DNA of 44,839 bases from a virus: positions 1 to 44,839 of the IMG/VR virus record IMGVR_UViG_3300045970_001009; one strand, 5' to 3'. This document shows, piece after piece, positions 1-44,839 of this stretch. Position 1 is the first letter of the stretch; every line of letters starts with the position of its first letter. The notes below the pieces were generated by a model, which was not told the origin of the DNA, did not search any database, and saw only the letters and a program-made list of their open reading frames with translations. Both the position numbers and the translations under genes were made by a program.

Positions 1-165
1 TGCCCGCACCGGTGCCACCTACCAACCCAAAGCCTCCCCCGCCGGTTGGCAGCGTGTGGATCGGCGGGTGCTCCAGCGCATCCAGTTCCCGATCAGCGAG
101 ACCAGAGATCACCAGCAGTTCCCGTGTGCGTCGTTGGACTGAGTTCATGGGGCACCTACGCGAGC
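1..165. repeat. Direct terminal repeat (circular genome junction), left copy
   Basis: Bases 1-165 are repeated at 44675-44839 with one difference (T at 125, A at 44799). The repeat covers the 5' part of the DnaC-like gene and its ATGA overlap with the replication gene. The mismatch changes a third codon position (ACA versus ACT, both Thr). The simplest reading is assembly overlap of a circular or circularly permuted genome with a minor variant. A true 165-bp packaged terminal repeat is less likely because it lies inside a gene and the phage has a lambda-type terminase. Confidence 0.9.
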
Positions 166-1059
166 GAGTTTGGGGACGATGAGGCGGTGAACCTGTGCTT
201 GGGTGGTGGCATCAGCAGCGATGCCCCCGGGCCGGGGTGGTGAAGCGCGGGCCGGTGCCCGAGTCGTTGCCCGTGCCTCGGCCACGAGCTTTTCTACTTG
301 GCCGTCACGCAGCAGGTAATCCAGCGGGCAGCGCCAATTCCGATCGCTGCCGCCTCGCATCCAGGCCGTGACAGGTGAGCGGGCCACATGGTCCAGCGCC
401 TCTCGAAACAGCGCCAGCCACCCCGGATCCTTCAGCCGGGCATCCAGCGCCTTCCGGCGCTTGTCGTCCAGCTTCAGCACCGCGGGCAGACCGGCCGGGA
501 CAGCCACCGCCGCCCAATGCGCCAAAACCTCACCACGAGGGAGGGCAAGGGCGGGCTGGGCCGCAGGCCCTTTCTTTTGTTCTTGGTCTTGGTCTTGGTC
601 TTGGTCTTGGTTGGTTGAGTTCCGGTTGAGCGTTGGTTCAACCATGGTTGAACCATGGTTGACAGTCGGTTGAACCGTGGTTGATTTTTGGGCTTTCTTG
701 GCCTCAGCCGAGGCTTTCCCCCGGTTGCTCTGGGCCTCGTAGAAGCCCATGACTTGCTCCCATTCCTTCACCAAGTAGGGAATGCCCACCCGGCCCGGCT
801 GACCCTCTATTGGCTGCAGCTTGTCCCACTTCGCCAGCAACTCGCCCAGCTCCGCTTCCGAGCACCGCGCGATCGCGGCCAACTTGCGCGGGTCCTCTGG
901 CAGCGATCCGCTTTTCGTCCACTGGTGCAGCATCAACAGAAACACGCTCCCCCATTCCTCCCGGTTGAGCGTTTCGTAATCCTCATCCATCAGCAGGTGC
1001 CGCGAGAACACCCGGAAATAGTCGGCGCGCTCAGGTCGGTCCATTTTGCAGCGGGCCAT
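145..1059 (-). CDS. DUF1376-like phage replication protein (lambda O position)
   Basis: A protein of 304 aa. The N-terminal ~100 residues (YFRVFSRHLLMDEDYETLN..., then a WxxLLxxW-like helical pattern) resemble the DUF1376/YdaU-type domain of phage replication initiators. A hydrophilic linker follows, with an 11-aa repeat (STTVQPTVNHG / STMVEPTLNRN) and an NQDQDQDQDQEQKK stretch, then a C-terminal basic/aromatic domain. The stop codon overlaps the start of the DnaC-like ATPase (ATGA at 145-148, continued at 44822), the usual initiator/helicase-loader pair. ATG 1059 is chosen because GGGAGG sits 5 bases upstream; GTG 1062 overlaps the preceding stop and is possible. The linker-coding DNA carries the iteron array at 613-689, so the gene probably contains its own origin as lambda O does. 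The family call rests on pattern and context. Confidence 0.7.
   Translation of the reverse strand: MARCKMDRPERADYFRVFSRHLLMDEDYETLNREEWGSVFLLMLHQWTKSGSLPEDPRKLAAIARCSEAELGELLAKWDKLQPIEGQPGRVGIPYLVKEWEQVMGFYEAQSNRGKASAEAKKAQKSTTVQPTVNHGSTMVEPTLNRNSTNQDQDQDQDQEQKKGPAAQPALALPRGEVLAHWAAVAVPAGLPAVLKLDDKRRKALDARLKDPGWLALFREALDHVARSPVTAWMRGGSDRNWRCPLDYLLRDGQVEKLVAEARATTRAPARASPPRPGGIAADATTQAQVHRLIVPKLARVGAP
582..611. repeat. Five tandem hexamers (CTTGGT)
   Basis: Five exact CTTGGT units run from 582 to 611 and lead directly into the 11-bp iterons. On the coding (minus) strand they encode alternating Asp-Gln. Upstream of them (571-581) is a short T-rich stretch. They may form part of the origin or be a slippage-prone linker. 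Confidence 0.85.
613..689. repeat. Seven 11-bp iterons; candidate replication origin
   Basis: GGTTGA (once GGTTCA) starts at 613, 624, 635, 646, 657, 668 and 679, exactly 11 bp apart. Several units extend to GGTTGAACCAT. The array lies in the linker of the putative replication initiator gene, the same arrangement as the lambda ori inside gene O. A short T-rich run (684-689) follows. Eleven is not a multiple of three, so protein-level selection cannot explain the period; the encoded 11-aa repeat is the by-product of 3 x 11 bp. That this is the origin is inference; the periodicity is directly visible. Confidence 0.75.
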
Positions 1060-1556
1060 CACGCCCTCCCTTTGAGGATCGCCAACATCAGCACACAGGC
1101 CTCGCCCATGGACTCCTTAGCCTTAGGTGCGCTGCCCAACATCATGCAGGCGTGGGCCTCGCGGGTCAGTTCCAATACTTTCGCTAGGTGTTTGCGGGCA
1201 CCTGGTCCTGCCAGTGCATTCAGTTCATTCAGCGCCTTGAGGATCGCCTCCTCCTCCAGCCCACTGCCCCAATGCTCACCCACCCCCAGACGCACCGCCA
1301 CCAGCTCCAGGAGGCCCGAGAGGCGCGCGTTCTCATCCTCGGGTGTCATGGGTTCCACCAGTGGGCTAGGGATAGCCTTGGCGTCCAGCGGACCCACCCA
1401 GTGGGTGACCGCACGGCAGGGAGCGCAGGAGCAGGCGAAGGGATAGGCACCCCGGGCATGCTCCACCATCATATGGACGCCCGCCCAGCGCAGATCCGTC
1501 AGTTCGGCCTGGCGGTCCATCAGTTCGGGGAGATTTGCAGCCATGGGGGAAGTCAT
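1059..1556 (-). CDS. Hypothetical early protein, 165 aa
   Basis: Not recognised. The N-terminal third contains a compact Cys pair (CSCAPC, about residue 43) with a nearby His, which could bind a metal; the rest is predicted helical and Glu/Ala/Leu rich. ATG 1556 is preceded by GAGG at a 7-base spacing. The stop codon TGA overlaps the GTG alternative start of the replication gene, so it belongs to the same polycistronic message and may be translated together with it. Confidence 0.7.
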   Translation of the reverse strand: MTSPMAANLPELMDRQAELTDLRWAGVHMMVEHARGAYPFACSCAPCRAVTHWVGPLDAKAIPSPLVEPMTPEDENARLSGLLELVAVRLGVGEHWGSGLEEEAILKALNELNALAGPGARKHLAKVLELTREAHACMMLGSAPKAKESMGEACVLMLAILKGRA

Positions 1557-3200: not shown

Positions 3201-3710
3201 TCAGGTGGCAGGCTTCATGAACACCAACCAGTGGGTCATGCCGCGCCGACCTGAGACTTGGCCGAATAAGGGTTGAAGGGGTGTGAGGGCCAGCACTTCG
3301 CCGACCTTCACCTGGGTTTCGTTCCACTTGAAGACCATCACGCCGGAGGCCTCCAGAACCCGGAAGCACTCAGAGAAGCCACGGCGCAAGTCCTCACGCC
3401 AGTCCGGCCCGAGCTTGCCGTATTTCGCGGCCATCCAGCTTTGCGCCCCGGCCCGCTCCAGATGGGGAGGATCGAAGGCGATCAGTTTGAAAGAGCCATC
3501 AGGGAACGGGAGGTCTCGGAAGTCCATCACCATGTCCGGCTCGATGCGGAGGGTGCGCTGGCCGTCCTGCCGCCCGTGGGAGCGATCCGTCATGGTCAGG
3601 GTCTCGCTCCGCTTGTCCCCGAAGATGGCCTCGGGGTGCTGGCGGTCGAACCACCACATGCGGCCGCCGCAGCAGGGGTCTAGGATTCGCCTTCCTTCGG
3701 TGGGGTTCAT
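3201..3710 (-). CDS. SAM-dependent DNA methyltransferase, DPPH type
   Basis: 169 aa. Residues 10-16 (LDPCCGG) look like the SAM-binding motif at the start of the Rossmann fold, and FDPPHL (79-84) corresponds to the catalytic DPPY-type motif of amino-methyltransferases that modify adenine N6 or cytosine N4. The later GVMVFKWNETQVKV block fits the strand after the catalytic loop. No target-recognition domain is visible, so it is small and probably an orphan methylase. In a phage early operon it would protect phage DNA or mark it. ATG 3710 has only a weak TGAG upstream. The enzyme class is well supported; its substrate is inference. Confidence 0.75.
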   Translation of the reverse strand: MNPTEGRRILDPCCGGRMWWFDRQHPEAIFGDKRSETLTMTDRSHGRQDGQRTLRIEPDMVMDFRDLPFPDGSFKLIAFDPPHLERAGAQSWMAAKYGKLGPDWREDLRRGFSECFRVLEASGVMVFKWNETQVKVGEVLALTPLQPLFGQVSGRRGMTHWLVFMKPAT

Positions 3711-4702: not shown

Positions 4703-5394
4703 AGGCCATCCCTCTGAGGCGTGGACGACGGCGTGGACGACCTGCGGATCAGCTCGCCACCCAAAACCAAAGTCTTGGCCAACAGATCCATTTCATCTGC
4801 AGCCCTAACCGAGGCCTCAAAATCCAGGTCCTCAAGGCAGGGCAAGAGATCGAGGGCTTGGCTGCGGAGGGCGCGCAGGCGAAACGCAGCGCTGCTGGAT
4901 TCGCGCAGCATGGGCGACACTTGACTGGCTGTCTTCCGGTCGAAAGAAGCCCCTTCGGGCGGGTTGCACTCCAGGCATCCTGGGCATTCCTTTTGACGAC
5001 ACGACTCAGATCTAACCGTGGCGCTCGGAAGCCCCTTCTTTTTGGCTTCCCACCGCCTTTTGTATTCGCGGCGGGCAGCGGCCAGTTCATCAGGCGTCTT
5101 GCGCATTCGAGGCATGGGGATCTCCTCAGCCACACCAATGGCTGTTTCGGGTTCGGTGGGTTTCATGGCCGCAACCACAGGTTTCGTCGGCACTGCGGTT
5201 CGGATGGTGATGCGGGGACGAAGCGGGGTGGCATCTGGGATAGCCGGTTCACCCAGCTCGGCCAAATCATCCTGGAAACTGCGCTGCAAAATCAGGAACA
5301 AATCATGGCCAGGGCCGTCATGGGCACCAGGATCGCGCAGCTCATTCAGGCTTTCCCGAATCTCACGGATGCGGCGGCCGGTCTCGTTTCTCAC
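4699..5394 (-). CDS. Hypothetical protein with a Cys cluster, 231 aa
   Basis: Starts at GTG 5394 (GTGA overlap with the HD gene; GAGG upstream). Middle region has a basic coiled segment (DELAAARREYKRRWEAKKK, about 103-121), followed by a CRQKECPGCLEC cluster that may bind zinc. The C-terminal part is helical and Leu rich (LRALRSQALDLLPCLEDL). Not recognised. The basic helix plus Cys cluster suggests nucleic-acid binding, but this is only inference. Longer starts would lie inside the HD gene in another frame. Confidence 0.6.
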   Translation of the reverse strand: MRNETGRRIREIRESLNELRDPGAHDGPGHDLFLILQRSFQDDLAELGEPAIPDATPLRPRITIRTAVPTKPVVAAMKPTEPETAIGVAEEIPMPRMRKTPDELAAARREYKRRWEAKKKGLPSATVRSESCRQKECPGCLECNPPEGASFDRKTASQVSPMLRESSSAAFRLRALRSQALDLLPCLEDLDFEASVRAADEMDLLAKTLVLGGELIRRSSTPSSTPQRDGL

Positions 5395-5951
5395 GCCGCC
5401 GCCTCGCCGATCAATGTCGCGGGCACGCCGGCCGCCGCCAGGAATTCGCTCACCGCAGGGATCAGGATCGGCAAGCGGCTTCGGCAAACCCGGAAGGTAT
5501 CGAAAACCAACTCGATCGCCAGTTCCCGTTCCAGCCCGAACACCCAAAACCACACCGAGGCATCCAGGATGTCGGCAATGGCCACCAGATCCTGGGTGAG
5601 CAAGGAGGGCGACGGGTGTGCCGCCCCCCGATCGCGCCACCAGGTGGTGGCCACCAGGTCGTCATAAGGATGGCCGAGGCTCTTGTCTAACCACCGCTTC
5701 GCCGGATTTGGGATGTCACCATGCTCCGTCTCCGGCAGGTCATGCTGCAAGGCCCAGCACAGCGTCTCCAGGGCCGCTTCGTCATCGTAGCGATCGCCAA
5801 GTTGATGCCCCAGCTGATCGGCCATCAGCGCCACCTTGGCCAGGTGTTCGCCCAGGGTCTGCTGACGAGTGGTGGGCTTGTTGTGCCACCGGGTGAGGTA
5901 CGAAAGGGCCAGAAGATCCTCAGGGCGAGGGCCGGGCAGAGAAACAGTCAC
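5391..5951 (-). CDS. HD-domain 5'-nucleotidase, YfbR-like
   Basis: 186 aa from GTG 5951, with GGAG five bases upstream. RWHNKPTTRQQTLGEHLAKV, QHDLPETEHGDIPNPAKR and DLVAIADILDA place the HD metal ligands at about H36, H70-D71 and D127; this matches the YfbR family, which dephosphorylates deoxynucleoside monophosphates. Length is that of the family (about 190). In the early operon it would degrade host dNMPs or tune pools together with the MazG-like enzyme. The start overlaps the end of the small membrane gene (GTGA). Confidence 0.8.
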   Translation of the reverse strand: MTVSLPGPRPEDLLALSYLTRWHNKPTTRQQTLGEHLAKVALMADQLGHQLGDRYDDEAALETLCWALQHDLPETEHGDIPNPAKRWLDKSLGHPYDDLVATTWWRDRGAAHPSPSLLTQDLVAIADILDASVWFWVFGLERELAIELVFDTFRVCRSRLPILIPAVSEFLAAAGVPATLIGEAAA

Positions 5952-6103
5952 AAAAGCTCCACATGGTTGGCCCTGTCGATCTGCCGCTGGCGTTCCACCA
6001 GTTCGTCCGTCGTGGGGCGCGTATCGGGTTTCGGGGCGGGCGCCAGCAACGCCCAAAGAACGAACACCAGCAGCACGGCCAAGGTGAACACCATGCCGTC
6101 CAT
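5948..6103 (-). CDS. Small single-span membrane protein, 51 aa
   Basis: MDGMVFTLAVLLVFVLWALL (1-20) is one clear transmembrane helix, followed by a Pro-rich stretch and a charged tail (DELVERQRQIDR). ATG 6103 has GGGGAGG at six bases and directly follows the stop of the next membrane gene (TGAATG). The stop overlaps the GTG of the HD gene. Function unknown; third of three tiny membrane proteins in a row. Confidence 0.65.
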   Translation of the reverse strand: MDGMVFTLAVLLVFVLWALLAPAPKPDTRPTTDELVERQRQIDRANHVELL

Positions 6104-6262
6104 TCAAAACCTCCCCGGCTCGTGGTCGCGGCCCTGGCTGTTGGCCTCGTCGGTGCACCAGGACCCAGCCAAAATCAACATGCAGCCAGGGAAGGCCGCC
6201 GCCATGCCCACCAGCAGGGTGGCATTCCCCACCAGGTGCAGAATCCGAACGCGCAGGCTCAT
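6104..6262 (-). CDS. Small membrane protein, 52 aa
   Basis: MSLRVRILHLVGNATLLVGM then an Ala/Phe/Cys-rich stretch to about residue 33 gives one hydrophobic span, followed by a short charged tail. AFPGC and AGSWC each place a Cys near the span but neither is a standard lipobox. ATG 6262 overlaps the TGA of the upstream 54-aa gene. Confidence 0.55.
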   Translation of the reverse strand: MSLRVRILHLVGNATLLVGMAAAFPGCMLILAGSWCTDEANSQGRDHEPGRF

Positions 6263-13426: not shown

Positions 13427-14697
13427 GTGGGCTCCGATGGATCGGGCTGGATGGCGAGGGTGCGGGCATAGAGGGAGATGGCCACGCTGCGTGCGGGTGG
13501 CGTGACTGCGAGCGTGCGTGCGGGTGGCGTGACTGCGAGCGTGCGTGCGGGCAGGATCACTGAGCGCGGGAGGCCAATATCCTGTTGGATCAGGACCGTT
13601 CCGGCATAGCCGGTGAAGATCCGTTCGGCGGGAGCTGCTGCGTCAGGGATGGTGATGCCGAAGACCACTTGCCCCGCGTACCCCGTGAAGACCACGGAAG
13701 CGGTGGCGGCATCGGTGTGGCTGGTAACGACACTCCCGACCAGGCCTTCGGTGACGACTGAAGACGGCGCGGCATCGCTGATTTCGAAACGGACAGAACC
13801 GGCCAGGCCAGTCACGATCACCTGGGCCGGAGTGGTATCGGGCACGAGGTCGCCGGTGAGCACCTGGCCTGCGTAGCCGATGATGGTCAGGGCGGCGGGT
13901 GCGGTGTCGGTGTGGGTTTGGCGCACGCTGCCGGTCAGACCTGCCAGGGTGATCTGGGCCGGGGCGGTGTCGGGGATGACGAGGCCCTGAACGACGCTGC
14001 CTGCGAAGCCGGTGACGGTACGGCCGGAAGGGGCAGTATCAGCCACGGCCAACGCAACGGATCCAGCGAAACCTGAGACGGTCAGGGCCGCAGGCGCAAC
14101 ATCAGGCACGGTGAGGGCGACGAATCCAGCGAGACCGGCAACGACCCGATTGGCGGGCGCGGCATCGGTCTGGGTGATGGCGACGGCATCACCGCTCTGG
14201 CCCGCGAGGATGATGGCCGCCGGGGTGGTGTCCTGGATGGAGAGCCCGGTGAGGACCTGCCCGGCGTAACCAGTGAAGGTCGCGTTGGTAGGCCCCACAT
14301 CGGCGATGGAGATCAGCAAGGTGGCGGCAAGGCCGAGGATGGTCAGGCTGCTGGGGGTGGTGTCGGCCACCTGGTGCTGAACGGCATCGGAGCCCAGGCC
14401 GGTGATGGTCAGGTTGGTGGGCGCGGCATCTGCCAGAGCCAGTTGGACAGCGCCTGCCAGGCCGGCAACGGTGGCGTTGGCCGGGGTGGTATCGGCCAGG
14501 GTCTTGCTGTAGGTGTCGGAACCCTGCCCGGCGATAGTGAGCGCGGCGGGGGTGGTGTCGGTGATGGTGAGATTCGACCCATAACTTGGGACGCCAAGCA
14601 TGGCCTCACTGACGAGCATCCCCGGAGGCGTCCCGTCGAAGATGGCATCACCAGAGGACCAGGTGCCAGGGAATACGCCCCGCCAGGGTGCAGCCAT
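13423..14697 (-). CDS. 424-aa structural repeat protein
   Basis: About 15 copies of a ~24-aa repeat of the form D-[TAV]-x-P-x-x-x-T-[hydrophobic]-x-G-[LFY]-[AG]-G-x-V..., for example DTTPAALTIAG, DAAPTNLTITG, DTAPAQITLAG and DVAPAALTVSG, spaced evenly from residue 45 to 360. This predicts a long beta-solenoid or stacked-strand fibre. The last 60 residues change to a short PARTLAVTP repeat that is tandem in DNA (13491-13551). Virion fibre or adhesin is the likely role; alternatives are a receptor-mimic or spacer protein. Confidence 0.65.
   Translation of the reverse strand: MAAPWRGVFPGTWSSGDAIFDGTPPGMLVSEAMLGVPSYGSNLTITDTTPAALTIAGQGSDTYSKTLADTTPANATVAGLAGAVQLALADAAPTNLTITGLGSDAVQHQVADTTPSSLTILGLAATLLISIADVGPTNATFTGYAGQVLTGLSIQDTTPAAIILAGQSGDAVAITQTDAAPANRVVAGLAGFVALTVPDVAPAALTVSGFAGSVALAVADTAPSGRTVTGFAGSVVQGLVIPDTAPAQITLAGLTGSVRQTHTDTAPAALTIIGYAGQVLTGDLVPDTTPAQVIVTGLAGSVRFEISDAAPSSVVTEGLVGSVVTSHTDAATASVVFTGYAGQVVFGITIPDAAAPAERIFTGYAGTVLIQQDIGLPRSVILPARTLAVTPPARTLAVTPPARSVAISLYARTLAIQPDPSEPT
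13491..13551. repeat. 27-bp tandem repeat inside the 424-aa gene
   Basis: The unit beginning GTGCGGGTGGCGTGACTGCG occurs at 13491 and 13518 with a third partial copy at 13545; it encodes a 9-aa block (ARTLAVTPP). In-frame and slippage-prone. Confidence 0.85.
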
Positions 14698-33930: not shown

Positions 33931-34422
33931 TCAGGCCTTCAGGCTGTCAAGTTCGGCCTGCTCTTCGGGTGCGAGCTCGCCCTTGGCTTCCAGTTCCTGG
34001 ATGCGCTCCAGTTTGGCGAGCGCGGCATCGTCGGCTTCCTGTGCGGCCAGCATTTCATCCTGGCGGAGCTTGATGGCCTCAATGAGCTTGGGTTTGCCCG
34101 CGTTGGGATGGAACTTCGCCTCGATGGTGGTGGCGAAGGCCTTCAACTGGGTGGTGTCCATGTCCTCCAGGGAGGGCAGTTCATCTGTTTCATCCAGGGA
34201 GGGCAGTTCATCTGTTTCATCCAGGCAGTTGGCAATAGATTTGGGGATGGGTTGGTCATGGCCAAAGGTTTCCCCGGCTTTGAATTCCACGGCCCCGGTG
34301 ACCTGGTAGAGCCCGTCGCCGAGCGCTTCCAGGGCATTGTTTCGCACGGCAGCTTGCTCGGGGCTGAGGGACAGCACCCCGTCGGCCAGGCGCACGGTGG
34401 TTTTGGTGGTGAAGGTCTTCAT
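33931..34422 (-). CDS. gpFI-like head assembly protein
   Basis: 163 aa. An N-terminal domain (MKTFTTKTTVRLADGVL...), a duplicated acidic DETDELPSL linker and a C-terminal helical HeH/SAP-like part (DTTQLKAFATTIEAKFHPNAGKPKLIEAI) that may bind DNA, ending in an acidic coil. In lambda gpFI sits between E and FII and stimulates packaging. CAGGAGAACCC precedes ATG 34422. Confidence 0.55.
   Translation of the reverse strand: MKTFTTKTTVRLADGVLSLSPEQAAVRNNALEALGDGLYQVTGAVEFKAGETFGHDQPIPKSIANCLDETDELPSLDETDELPSLEDMDTTQLKAFATTIEAKFHPNAGKPKLIEAIKLRQDEMLAAQEADDAALAKLERIQELEAKGELAPEEQAELDSLKA
34167..34225. repeat. 27-bp duplication in the gpFI-like gene
   Basis: The unit beginning CCAGGGAGGGCAGTTCATC occurs at 34167 and 34194 and encodes DETDELPSL twice; a short third start follows. 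A recent in-frame duplication of an acidic linker. Confidence 0.9.
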
Positions 34423-38935: not shown

Positions 38936-39156
38936 CGGGGCACCCCAATATGCAGGCGGCTCTGCCCAGAGGCGGACTCGCCGAGGCTGGCGACTTCGGC
39001 CTGCAGATCCTTGATGGCGGCTCTCACCTCGGCGAGTTCGACATCCCGGCGCCGCCGGGTGCCCACGGTGTATTCCTGGCCCGCCGACAGCAGGGCTGTC
39101 TCCCGGGCCAGGTAGGCTTCCAATCGAGACTGGGCGGTTTCAAGGGCAGTCGGCAT
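38932..39156 (-). CDS. W: gpW-like head-tail joining protein
   Basis: 74 aa. MPTALETAQSRLEAYLARETALLSAGQEYTVGTRRRRDVELAEVRAAIKDLQAEV has the helix-hairpin-helix of lambda gpW (helix, YTVG-x-R-x-R turn, helix). Starts at ATG 39156 close to the second block of the 47-bp element; its ribosome site is weak (GGGG). Overlaps the portal. Confidence 0.8.
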   Translation of the reverse strand: MPTALETAQSRLEAYLARETALLSAGQEYTVGTRRRRDVELAEVRAAIKDLQAEVASLGESASGQSRLHIGVPR

Positions 39157-39233: not shown

Positions 39234-41168
39234 CTACCCGGCGGAACCCTTGCTCCGGATCCGGCGGCCGCTGGAGGAGGTGTAAGCCACCTGTCCCACC
39301 GCTTGGCTGGCGTGTTTAGCCAGATCATCGAGGTGCTTCCGGCCGTCTGGCCCACCCAGATGGGGGGCCAGGATCTTGGTGATAGCCCACCATCCGCTCA
39401 GGGCGTAGCTCCAGAGGTCGAGGGCTTCATTGCGGTTCCGAGTCTTGACCCAGCGGTAGGTGGTCTTCCTGGTCTTGATGTCGGTGACAGGCACGCGCTT
39501 CTCTCCAGCCAGCTGCTCAAGGTATTCATCGCTCACCCATTCAGCAAGGTGGATTCCCTTGGAGGCCGTGAGGCTCAGTCCCAGGCGGCCCACCACGGCC
39601 TGCTTTGTATCGTCGGTTGCGGTGAGGAAGTACCGCTGGGTGTTCTTCTTGGCTGTGCTTTCCTCGCACCACCCCTTGGAGGCAAGCACATCTACACCCA
39701 TCTGGGGGAAGATCCAGCGATCGCCTTTGTCCTCGCAGTATTTGAAGGCAGAAGGTCGCACCGCGCCGTCGCGCGCATCAATGAACACGATGTGGGGCGT
39801 CATCTGGGCGCCATTCTGGTGCCGCCACCCTTGAAGCAGCCACGCATCAAGGTCCTCAAAGACTAGGTCCTGCTTTGGATCCCCGGGGAAAACCTGGAAG
39901 TCGATAAGGAAGGAACGCTCATCAGGCATGAAGCCGACTGCCTGGGCCTCAAGGCGCCCGCAGGCGGCGGTCTGCACATCGACCGTGACCACGATCAGGG
40001 CCACGCCATCAGGGACAACCGCCCGTGGGGACTTGTCTTCATTTGCCCGCTTGCGCATTTCGCTGGGTTCAACGCTCTCGCCAGGGGTATTGAAGGTCTC
40101 GGCCAGGTGCAGATTCACGAAGGCTTTTAATTCAAGCTGATCACCTTGGGCGTCTACCCATTCCTGGGCCATCTTGGTCCAATGCCCATCGAAGATGGCA
40201 TACAGGCCGTTGGCCCAGAATCCCTTGACGGCCGAAATGGCTGGGCGGCGGTGATTCCAGCGCCCTGCTTCCATCATCCCGACTTTGCGGCGCTCCGCGA
40301 TTTGGTTGCCGCACCGAATACAGGTCCAGTGAACGCTTTCGGGAATGACCTGGTTGTCTTTGTCCTTCTCGAACTTCAGCAGGTAATCCGTGGGATTGGC
40401 TGGATTTCTCCACAGGAAGGGCTCCATGGCGTTGCACGCGGGGCACGGCACAAGGTAGATGCCCATAGAGGATCGGTTATAGGCCTTCTCGATTCTGCTG
40501 ATCCCGCTGGGCATGGCTGGGGTAGAACCGATCAGCAGGCGGCCGTCAGTGGAGAACTCATCCATGCGGCGCCGGACCAGCTTGTCGGGATCACCTTCGT
40601 CTGACACATCGTTTTTATAGCCATCGGCTTCGTCTTCGATGATGAACCGGGCGCGCTTTGAACGCAGTTCGCGGGGATTGCCCGCGCTGGCCACGAAGAA
40701 ACTTCCCCCATTCTTGAATCGCTTCATGCGGGTGGTGCTGCCCGCCTCTTTGGAGGTGGAGCGCCGGAGGATGTCGGAAAGGGTTGGGGTGCCCTCGATC
40801 ATTTCATCCAGCCGCTCTTTGCAGTAATCCTCTGCGGTGTCGCGGCTTGGCTGAAGCATGATCATGGCCATGCCATGGGTCGTGATTCCCCAGCCCAGGG
40901 CGTTGTTGCAGATTTCCGACCACCCCAGCCGGGTTGATTTCATGAAGACGACTTCCCGCACCTCCGGGTCGCAGCAGCTGGCCTGGATTTCTTGCTGGAT
41001 CGGATCGGCCACCCATTGACCTGGCCGGCCTGATGCGGATGGCAGCACGCGGTTGGCGTGTGCCCACTGTTCAATGCTGATGTCAGCTGGGGGTAACCAA
41101 AGGTTCAAGGCCCGGGCACGGGCGGCTTCCATCTCATCGAGGGCGGTAGGGTGGGTGCAGAGAGTCAA
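39234..41168 (-). CDS. terL: Terminase large subunit, lambda gpA type
   Basis: 644 aa. Starts at TTG 41168, with CAGGAG upstream and TTGA overlap of the small subunit. ATPase: Walker A KSTRLGWSE (77-84) and Walker B FIIEDEADG (about 175-182); zinc-like Cys pairs C242/C245 and C283/C286; nuclease-type aspartates in VDVQ and FIDARDG. Belongs to the cos-cutting gpA family, so packaging is probably of the cos type. Confidence 0.9.
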   Translation of the reverse strand: MTLCTHPTALDEMEAARARALNLWLPPADISIEQWAHANRVLPSASGRPGQWVADPIQQEIQASCCDPEVREVVFMKSTRLGWSEICNNALGWGITTHGMAMIMLQPSRDTAEDYCKERLDEMIEGTPTLSDILRRSTSKEAGSTTRMKRFKNGGSFFVASAGNPRELRSKRARFIIEDEADGYKNDVSDEGDPDKLVRRRMDEFSTDGRLLIGSTPAMPSGISRIEKAYNRSSMGIYLVPCPACNAMEPFLWRNPANPTDYLLKFEKDKDNQVIPESVHWTCIRCGNQIAERRKVGMMEAGRWNHRRPAISAVKGFWANGLYAIFDGHWTKMAQEWVDAQGDQLELKAFVNLHLAETFNTPGESVEPSEMRKRANEDKSPRAVVPDGVALIVVTVDVQTAACGRLEAQAVGFMPDERSFLIDFQVFPGDPKQDLVFEDLDAWLLQGWRHQNGAQMTPHIVFIDARDGAVRPSAFKYCEDKGDRWIFPQMGVDVLASKGWCEESTAKKNTQRYFLTATDDTKQAVVGRLGLSLTASKGIHLAEWVSDEYLEQLAGEKRVPVTDIKTRKTTYRWVKTRNRNEALDLWSYALSGWWAITKILAPHLGGPDGRKHLDDLAKHASQAVGQVAYTSSSGRRIRSKGSAG

Positions 41169-41960: not shown

Positions 41961-43043
41961 TCAGCCCACCTCTGCCGCACTTTTGCGTTCTGCCCATCCC
42001 GTCTTCCTCGCCACCCTGCGCTGCGCCTCAGCAATGCGGCCCAGATCGATGCCCAGATAGATGGCTGTGGTCCTGATGTCCTTGTGTCCGAGGGCTGCCT
42101 GAATGTCCTGAATCGTTGCCCCGTTCTCACTTAGCCAAGTCGCATAGGTTCCGCGAAGGCGATGGGGGGTCATCCGTGGGATACCCACCGCCTTGCAGGC
42201 AGCCTCGAAAACCCGCCTTACTCGACCCGGGGTGACAGGCCTGCCCTTGATGGTCGGTGCCATCCATCCAAATGGCTTGGCCTTGGCCCTGAGCCGATCC
42301 ATCAACCAGGGCGGGATGGGGCGCGACCATGCCTCGCCGCCCTTGGTTCCACCTGGCGTGTAGGTCTCACGCTCCAGATCCAGCCATTCCCATCGCGCAC
42401 GCTGCGCCTCACTCCCGCGCAGGCCGATGCCGACCTCCAGAGCCAGCACCATGCCCAGGCCTGGCTCATGCTCGGTCAGGGCATCCACCTCATCCAGCCA
42501 TTCGCTTGCCTTTGTAGTCGGGATCAAGGGCTTGGGCTTCATCTTCAGCTTGGATTCAGCGACCTTGAACGGCATGGAGCGGATCATGTTGCGACCGATC
42601 GCCCACTTGCAGACGATTCGGATGTAGGTCAGCCACTGGTTGCCAGTCGATAGGGCATGGGTTCGCAGGAACACGGCCAGCTCATCTTCGACTTTCGGCG
42701 TGCTGACCTGGGTAAGCAGCAGATCAGCCAGGGCGCCCAGATGCAGCCGCCCGTATCGCTCGATATTCTCCAGGTGGCTCTGGCTCTTGCGTAGGACATT
42801 CAGCGGATGGTTCACCCACTGCACAAAGGCCTCTCGCAGAGTTGGCTCCGGCTCTTCCCCCCGGGATCTCATCAGGGCTTTCTCATGGATGTACAGCGCC
42901 ACCCGCTCAGCCTTGGCTGTGTTCCGAAGCGGCTCCTTGGTCGTCTTGGTGGTGCGCTGCTTCGAGATCTGGAATTCGCAGTGCCAGAAGCCCCCCCTGG
43001 GGACCATGGTCACCGGGCCGCATCGGTAGCGTTCAATCACCAC
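41961..43043 (-). CDS. Second tyrosine recombinase
   Basis: 360 aa from GTG 43043 (or GTG 43040), overlapping the gpZ-like stop. R in GIGLRGSEAQRARW (about 208), H-x-L-R in TPHRLRGTYATWL (296), H in LGHKDIRTTAIYL (318) and Tyr (327) are the catalytic set. N-terminal SAM-like/arm part includes HEKALMRSRGEEPE. Unlike the main integrase it is in the lytic operon and coupled to a virion gene. It could be a second integrase, a resolvase of concatemers, or a transferred element. Confidence 0.85.
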   Translation of the reverse strand: MVIERYRCGPVTMVPRGGFWHCEFQISKQRTTKTTKEPLRNTAKAERVALYIHEKALMRSRGEEPEPTLREAFVQWVNHPLNVLRKSQSHLENIERYGRLHLGALADLLLTQVSTPKVEDELAVFLRTHALSTGNQWLTYIRIVCKWAIGRNMIRSMPFKVAESKLKMKPKPLIPTTKASEWLDEVDALTEHEPGLGMVLALEVGIGLRGSEAQRARWEWLDLERETYTPGGTKGGEAWSRPIPPWLMDRLRAKAKPFGWMAPTIKGRPVTPGRVRRVFEAACKAVGIPRMTPHRLRGTYATWLSENGATIQDIQAALGHKDIRTTAIYLGIDLGRIAEAQRRVARKTGWAERKSAAEVG

Positions 43044-43816: not shown

Positions 43817-44175
43817 CCTTCCCTCCGGAGGCTTCTAAGCACCAGTTCTTTCACCCGGGACTTGCGCCGACTCTTGAACCAGAGTTCGCGCACTCGATCA
43901 ACCGAGACCCCAACCTCTAGAGACACCGCTCGGAAAATCGCTTCTTTCGGAAGATCGGGGTGGTTCTGGGAAACAAACTCGCACCGCCATTTCAGCTCGT
44001 TGTCCTCCTGGTAGATCTCCAAAACTTCACTGAAGGCCTCCAGAATCGTCTTTCGCAAATGAGCAGCCTGATTGGGTTCCAATAGTGGGTGGATCACGCC
44101 ACGCCGGATCGCCGCGCGAACATCGTGTGGAAGATCTTCAGGAGAGGTCCACGACTTCCAGTTGATTTCATTCAC
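43813..44175 (-). CDS. Hypothetical HTH-like protein, 120 aa
   Basis: Helical. LPKEAIFRAVSLEVGVSVDRVRELWFKSRRKSRVKEL (about 79-115) reads as a helix-turn-helix with a basic end. ATG 44175 overlaps the helicase-loader stop and the stop overlaps the gpZ-like start. Function unknown; DNA-binding accessory of replication is a guess. Confidence 0.6.
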   Translation of the reverse strand: MNEINWKSWTSPEDLPHDVRAAIRRGVIHPLLEPNQAAHLRKTILEAFSEVLEIYQEDNELKWRCEFVSQNHPDLPKEAIFRAVSLEVGVSVDRVRELWFKSRRKSRVKELVLRSLRREG

Positions 44176-44822
44176 TGATCCCCCCCCGCCACCTTCTTGA
44201 GTTCAACCTGTGGCATCAGCGGGCAAAGTCTTAGATCCTGCCCCTCCACCTCGTAGGCAGGCCAACTGCCCAGGATGCGGCTGGCCAGGGCTGCGCCGTA
44301 GGTGCTCGACAGTTCATCCGCGTTCAAGTTGCTGGTCCAGAGCACTGGGCACTTGCGACGATGGCGCGTATCCAGCACCCGCACCAGCACAGCCCGCGCC
44401 GGATCTTTTGCGCCCTCAAAGCGCTCGCGGCCCAGGTCATCCAGCACCAGCAGCGGCACATCCTCAGCCCAGGTGGACCACGCATCCACCCACACATCAT
44501 CGAAGCGGCGGCGGTGGATGTCCTCCACCTGGTCGTGCCAGTTGACCCAAAGCACGCGCCGATCACGGGCCACCTCGCCATCCACCCAGATCAGTTTCGC
44601 CCGGCTGGGGTCCGGCTGGCGCGTCACCGCCTCAACCACCCCCCGCGCCACCTGGTGCACCAGCGCCCAGGTCTTGCCCGCACCGGTGCCACCTACCAAC
44701 CCAAAGCCTCCCCCGCCGGTTGGCAGCGTGTGGATCGGCGGGTGCTCCAGCGCATCCAGTTCCCGATCAGCGAGACCAGAGATCACCAGCAGTTCCCGAG
44801 TGCGTCGTTGGACTGAGTTCAT
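44172..44822 (-). CDS. DnaC/IstB-like helicase loader ATPase
   Basis: 216 aa. Walker A GGTGAGKT (44-51), Walker B LLVLDDLG (D128-D129) and sensor-1 in LWTSNLNADEL are AAA+ signatures of the DnaC/IstB group. It would load host replicative helicase at the phage origin. The gene starts at ATG 44822 inside the terminal repeat; its start overlaps the stop of the replication protein across the circle junction. Confidence 0.8.
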   Translation of the reverse strand: MNSVQRRTRELLVISGLADRELDALEHPPIHTLPTGGGGFGLVGGTGAGKTWALVHQVARGVVEAVTRQPDPSRAKLIWVDGEVARDRRVLWVNWHDQVEDIHRRRFDDVWVDAWSTWAEDVPLLVLDDLGRERFEGAKDPARAVLVRVLDTRHRRKCPVLWTSNLNADELSSTYGAALASRILGSWPAYEVEGQDLRLCPLMPQVELKKVAGGDQ

Positions 44823-44839
44823 GGGGCACCTACGCGAGC
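44675..44839. repeat. Direct terminal repeat, right copy
   Basis: Matches bases 1-165 with one mismatch (44799). Shows that the two ends of the window join. Confidence 0.9.

Follow-up and report, generated by a model that had tools for sequence, protein, structure and literature searches.

A probable replication origin inside a phage initiator gene, and the pairing of its iterons with a basic helix in DUF1376-like proteins

A short DNA repeat with a period of 11 bp runs through the middle of a phage replication gene, which raises the question of whether the DNA itself, rather than the protein that it encodes, is what is conserved there. The window analyzed is the entire 44,839-bp virus record IMGVR_UViG_3300045970_001009. 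Its ends carry a 165-bp direct repeat (1–165 and 44675–44839, 99% identical), so that the genome is probably complete, being either circular or terminally redundant, and the gene at the left edge runs on into the operon at the right edge. Genes for a DNA methyltransferase (3201–3710), a YfbR-like HD hydrolase (5391–6158), a GpA-type large terminase (39234–41168) and a tyrosine integrase (41961–43043), all on the minus strand, indicate a temperate tailed phage. The features discussed below are as follows.

145–1062, minus strand: putative initiator gene, 305 codons from the GTG at 1062, with matches to phrog_345, phrog_10469, phrog_6451 and PF07120.
730–1062, minus strand: N-terminal domain, residues 1–111, winged-helix-like (alignment, AlphaFold2 model and fold neighbours).
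685–729, minus strand: basic end of a long helix, residues 112–126, SNRGKASAEAKKAQK (AlphaFold2 helix and co-variation with the iterons).
613–684, minus strand: seven iterons T[CG]AACC (GGTT[GC]A on the plus strand), starting at 613, 624, 635, 646, 657, 668 and 679, with a period of 11 bp.
582–611, minus strand: ACCAAG array (CTTGGT on the plus strand), five hexamers directly after the iterons.
265–465, minus strand: C-terminal helical domain, residues ~200–266 (AlphaFold2, low to moderate confidence).
44172–44822, minus strand: DnaC-like helicase loader, a P-loop ATPase of 216 aa (phrog_50, E = 9.9e-20; phrog_3277, E = 9.7e-14).

The preliminary description of this DNA had reported seven GGTT[GC]A units beside five CTTGGT hexamers, and exactly those seven are found, 11 bp apart, with the hexamers at 582, 588, 594, 600 and 606. 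It had also remarked that the codons shift from unit to unit; the units occupy codon frames 0, 2, 1, 0, 2, 1 and 0 of the minus-strand ORF, and thus all three frames. Self-identity of the segment 612–684 is 0.68 at a lag of 11 and 0.69 at a lag of 22, against 0.38 or less at all other lags from 3 to 24. This lag-11 score was matched in none of 20,000 synonymous resamplings drawn with phage codon usage, which retained at most five in-phase units as compared with the seven observed. The iterons lie mid-gene, ~380 bp past the start of the gene, and the segment 577–690 has an A+T content of 52.6% (window mean 39.6%), at the 97th percentile of the window. No second array with at least four copies of any 6-mer spaced every 11 bp occurs elsewhere in the 44.8-kb window. 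Tandem repeats of other kinds are present: a GCCGGA-like hexamer in ~39 copies, with a higher period of 36 bp, extends over 1569–1804 and fills a small minus-strand ORF (1560–1826) that is translated as SGSGDGDG...YGYGRG and gave no convincing match in a family search, and 27-bp units recur in 2.2–2.4 copies with 100% match at 13488–13551 and 34166–34225.

The pattern (TCAACCN5)x4 was tried as a diagnostic in bacterial genomes and rejected, as its matches are mostly perfect intergenic microsatellites and the iteron pattern alone is therefore not diagnostic there; PF07120 had zero matches in nine genomes reached in this way. The same pattern is found mid-gene in replication-type ORFs of other phages (L018, L035–L038, L041, L042 and L044), whose 3' parts are low in GC and encode KEYKNKEYKK-like sequence. 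These look like instances of the same iteron core in apparently different initiator families.

The product of ORF 145–1062 matches the 'replication initiation O-like' family phrog_345 (E = 6.1e-14), the 'DnaD-like helicase loader' family phrog_10469 (E = 2e-7) and the primosomal protein family phrog_6451 (E = 1.9e-6), the first two matches extending to residue 260. The length of 304 aa given in the preliminary description is correct for a start at ATG 1059; from GTG 1062 the protein has 305 residues. The PF07120 (DUF1376) profile scores it at 22.2 bits, under the Pfam gathering cut-off of 30.1, and we therefore refer to it as DUF1376-like rather than as a member of the family; its relatives L005 and L006 score 28.3 and 25.1 bits. 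In a tree it forms its own clade, and a profile comparison of this clade with DUF1376, made with very shallow alignments, returned a probability of 5.9% and E = 0.0064. Searches of a phage collection with tblastn gave four weak matches for the full protein and three, also weak, for the N-terminal domain alone.

An AlphaFold2 model built on 41 sequences (mean pLDDT 64.6) comprises an N-terminal helical domain, a long helix spanning residues 94–129 (pLDDT 88–95 in most blocks) and a helical C-terminal domain, which is probably the contact with the loader or helicase. Confidence falls from 61 to 52 over the residues encoded by the iterons and lies under 50 for residues 148–197, the stretch into which the ACCA array falls. 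Fold neighbours of the N-terminal domain are MarR-family winged helices and the plasmid initiators 4pql, 5kbj and 4pta, at middling scores (Z ~5–6); Foldseek with this domain found no match under E = 0.2, and a sequence-profile search of the PDB found none. The domain is conserved in relatives that bear different iterons. We propose that the iterons are read by residues 112–126, where the long helix ends in a basic segment.

This proposal stems from a comparison of the helix end, which is encoded just 5' of the iterons in the coding direction, with the iterons themselves. Four pairings of helix and iteron emerged: GKASA with GTTSAAC (class S), ARW with ATGC (W), GKxGGRP with AACCC (G) and ANRIK with TCAGA (N). 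Two of these were fixed as a rule before fresh loci were inspected, '..A..RW' predicting ATGC and 'G..S[AGV]..[RK]' predicting TTSAAC. Among 51 clusters of fresh DUF1376 genes, all 17 with a W helix had ATGC and 20 of the 23 with an S helix had TTSAAC (Fisher p = 2.6e-8). The full set (n = 128) contains 60 S helices with S iterons, one with W iterons and six with none, together with 30 W helices with W iterons and two with none. Across 148 genes, at least two copies of the class motif occur in 92, 61, 74 and 100% of the S, W, G and N genes, respectively, as against 0–2% of the others. A second fresh set, whose loci were chosen using a query without the helix, had AACCC in 30 of 32 genes with a G helix and TCAGA with the single N helix, while two genes disagreed; because the G and N classes had been recognized only once data were inspected, the G test in this set is the only one of theirs that counts as predefined. 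Four W genes of a GKRGAAKRW-like subtype gave no iteron call in this set. A helix of the form GKRGAAKRW or GKKGAAIRW without ATGC iterons is seen in L636, L657, L660 and L698.

In a tree built from the domain with the helix left out, helix class changes ~10 times, at least four of them on well-supported branches, and the iteron follows the helix in all four supported pairs (p = 0.125; with four pairs, p = 0.05 is out of reach from the tree alone). For S, W and G the pairing holds in predefined tests on fresh samples, one W subtype excepted, and it also holds on the domain tree. Spacing is likewise shared: in class S, 93 of 137 distances between neighbouring sites equal 11 bp, the main peak is at 11 bp (and 22) in W and G, and it is at 11–12 bp in N. 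The combination of GTTSAAC with a small-small-x-x-basic helix bears a resemblance, taken here as an analogy, to that of AP-1 sites with bZIP basic regions. A separate DUF1376 branch (L285, L287, L288 and L289) bears other iterons, of GGGAC type and TGTAACGCC; in L287 the GGGAC-type iterons GGGGACAGGAC recur at 11 bp and are followed by GACAGT hexamers. Taken together, these data suggest that the signal-reading part of the protein is encoded immediately beside the iterons and that both change together.

Close relatives permit the same comparison at higher resolution. The N-terminal domain is 70–77% identical in seven viral loci; 11-bp TCAACC units are kept in L004 and L005, in line with the conserved spacing anticipated for related phages, and no close relative without repeats was seen. 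Four relatives (L006, L007, L012 and L015) have the helix end KAARGGAARW in place of NRGKASAEAR, and GATGCCC iterons, while ACCAAG hexamers are present in L004–L008. The nucleotide identity of L005 and L006 is 0.90 over the N-terminal domain and drops to 0.56 from the helix through the iterons and the array to the C-terminal domain; it is 0.92 over the tail and 0.91 for the gene that follows. On these identities, the pair is a natural and clean swap of the helix–iteron cassette.

The hexamers adjoining the iterons recur in a manner of their own. In the window, 8 bp separate the first ACCA of the array from where the TSAAC unit of the last iteron begins, and 29 S-class genes show an identical distance. 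Chains of ACCA at 6- or 7-bp steps are present in 51 of 88 non-redundant genes, as compared with a mean of 12.6 and a maximum of 18 under a synonymous null, and ACCA ranks first among all 256 4-mers for such chains. The array is common to the S and W classes and is also found in some G and unclassified genes. Its translations include DQDQ, NQNQ, PTPT and TKTK, while the 7-bp form is translated as NQEPITNNHKPIT, each of the three frames being used. When 2.9 million viral contigs were scanned for (ACCAN3)x5, at least 120 loci matched; among the matches listed, 110 of 120 are in DUF1376-type genes and 116 have ACCA on the coding strand, so that the 7-bp form appears nearly confined to such genes among these matches. 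The 6-bp form (ACCAN2)x5 was rejected as a diagnostic, with 8 of 119 matches in DUF1376-type genes and many in unrelated low-complexity proteins, and for the window the case for the array rests on its position beside the iterons. From this pattern, the hexamers are part of a putative second element, the ACCA array, and not extra iterons. We propose that the array is a strand-opening element; its hexamers are themselves 50% A+T.

The next gene downstream of the initiator gene, across the terminal repeat, is that of the DnaC-like loader. Among the 30 next genes scanned (the window's own and 29 taken from relatives), eight or nine match DnaC-like loader families and seven a lambda P-like loader family. 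The cumulative GC skew of the window has its minimum near 13 kb and its maximum near 40 kb, with no origin signal at 0.6 kb, and the 44,839-bp window contains no DnaA box; phage origins of the loader type are not known to require either.

In light of these results, the segment 577–690 is very probably the replication origin of the phage and the protein encoded by 145–1062 its initiator, as the preliminary description had predicted; the O-like homology, the DnaC-like loader gene alongside, the 11-bp spacing in relatives and the helix–iteron co-variation all point this way. The best reading is of a lambda-O-type origin that lies within a gene and is built from different parts. What was computed directly is the repeats with their conservation at the DNA level, their gene context, the co-variation of helix and iteron and the recurrence of the ACCA array next to the iterons; from these we infer a sequence of binding, filament formation, opening and loading. 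Initiator protomers would occupy the seven T[CG]AACC sites and, these being one helical turn apart, would all lie on one face of the DNA, forming a filament of ~77 bp. Specificity would reside at least partly in the basic helix end (residues ~112–126), encoded just upstream of the sites. Assembly may put strain on the duplex where the ACCAAG array adjoins; the array would open and expose a strand, and the C-terminal domain would recruit the DnaC-like loader, which in turn would place the host DnaB helicase on that strand.

The repeats could instead be a protein-level or neutral product, a disordered Q/N/T-rich linker extended by replication slippage with no role for the DNA. The encoded stretch is indeed predicted to be disordered or modelled with low confidence, in-frame ACCA arrays with a 6-bp step are frequent in unrelated low-complexity proteins as noted above, and exact 11-bp TCAACC microsatellites occur intergenically in bacteria. 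We nevertheless consider this explanation highly improbable: the period crosses all frames and far exceeds the synonymous null, the units are diverged rather than fresh copies, the out-of-frame 7-bp ACCA arrays listed fall overwhelmingly in initiator genes, and motif and spacing are kept class by class across distant genes. Plasmid iterons serve as operator or handcuffing sites, and the initiator might bind the array to repress its operon or limit copy number rather than to start replication, a role with which the silence of the GC skew at this locus would agree. The position of the iterons, far into the gene rather than at a promoter, argues against such a role, as does the recurrent second element with a helicase-loader gene following; the same layout in lambda is an origin (PMC7466680). 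An operator or handcuffing function is accordingly very unlikely, if slightly less so than a neutral linker.

Two further alternatives accept the origin and concern its parts. Since helix and iterons are adjacent, they could travel as a linked cassette without any contact between them, recognition being the task of the winged helix or the C-terminal domain. That the cassette exchanged between L005 and L006 extends through the C-terminal domain, that the neighbours by fold are winged helices, with plasmid initiators among them (4pql, 5kbj and 4pta, Z ~5), and that the basic helix end belongs to no known DNA-binding family lend this idea some weight, and we regard it as doubtful but the most credible of the four alternatives. 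Against it, the iteron can be predicted from a short motif in the helix even where the N-terminal domains are distant, and the winged-helix domain of L005 and L006 is 90% identical although their iterons differ, making it unlikely to be the sole determinant of specificity. The ACCAAG array, for its part, could be a recombination joint for the exchange of initiator halves, given that similarity is lost in the array-containing cassette of relatives and that C-terminal domains differ beyond the array. This is unlikely, as one border of the L005/L006 exchange precedes the helix and so lies outside the array, and the unit varies (ACCAAG, ACCAAC, ACCANNN and TCTCCA), offering little homology for recombination, while the array keeps its spacing and stays next to the iterons.

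With the origin reading retained, what the present analysis adds to the preliminary description is a putative helix-to-iteron code, cassette exchange and a second, class-independent element. More broadly, DUF1376-like proteins may constitute a large undescribed class of phage initiators with an exchangeable in-gene cassette of helix and target, a readable code of at least four pairings and a class-independent ACCA array as a new strand-opening element, a proposition for and against which we find the balance about even. If true, it would assign a role to a widespread 'domain of unknown function' and make the origins of many temperate phages readable from sequence. It would also provide a model for how an initiator is retargeted without loss of its origin, helix and target moving together within ~100 bp of one gene. 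The ACCA array, which is kept in different iteron classes and can be read in any frame, makes it directly testable how such phages open their origin. Neither DUF1376 as an initiator nor DUF1376 iterons are described in the literature searched, in which older work on phage replication modules is thinly covered, so that the novelty of single points is uncertain; the domain is mentioned there in five papers, once each and outside title and abstract, in one of them as an entry of a mutation table.

Comparison with known systems places the window closest in layout to lambda. The preliminary description had noted that lambda carries its iterons in gene O, and the lambda record does place four O-binding iterons (39034–39118) inside O. 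The parallel holds for the layout and not for the detail: the lambda spacing is 20–24 bp, and a BLASTP comparison with lambda O detected no similarity (E = 0.24), next to a match of the O-like profile phrog_345 at E = 6.1e-14. Taken singly, neither the resemblance to lambda O nor that to DUF1376 is strong. Like the window, the lambda origin and those of Stx phages have iterons in mid-initiator, an adjoining second element and a helicase-loader gene next; in lambda the AT-rich tract that adjoins the iterons in mid-O is needed for unwinding (PMC7466680). Lambda has four 18-bp iterons and this tract, whereas the window has ACCA hexamers and seven 6-bp cores at 11-bp intervals, and the loader is P-like in lambda but DnaC-like here. 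By analogy, the array holds the place of the AT-rich tract, and opening might occur there. DnaA-trio and other DnaA-type unwinding elements are also short repeats beside initiator sites proposed as an opening region, although the trio unit is 3 nt, while the array here has a 6–7-nt unit with the motif ACCA and no DnaA box. The RepA_N initiators 4pql, 5kbj and 4pta share a winged-helix N-terminal domain and some fold similarity with the window protein (VIA Z 4.9–5.4; Foldseek E = 0.43, not significant), with zero sequence match, and belong to plasmids rather than phages. The putative initiators of the DUF1376 family match in architecture throughout, with the domain, a class helix, iterons, an ACCA or hexamer array and a loader gene. 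Among them, ydaU of the Rac prophage in E. coli K-12 (L384:6120–6977) is annotated DUF1376 and has an N-terminal domain and basic helix, an S helix (AAGKASVQARR), in-gene repeats with several GTTSAA sites and an ATPase gene, ydaV, next; unlike those of the window, its repeats are degraded and its hexamers GATAAA-like. Rac is reported to carry an active origin, oriJ (PMC3945230), plasmids of which were studied by Potrykus et al. (2000), as cited in PMC11014345. We regard ydaU as a candidate location of oriJ, and YdaU, YdaV and oriJ in E. coli K-12 offer a laboratory system.
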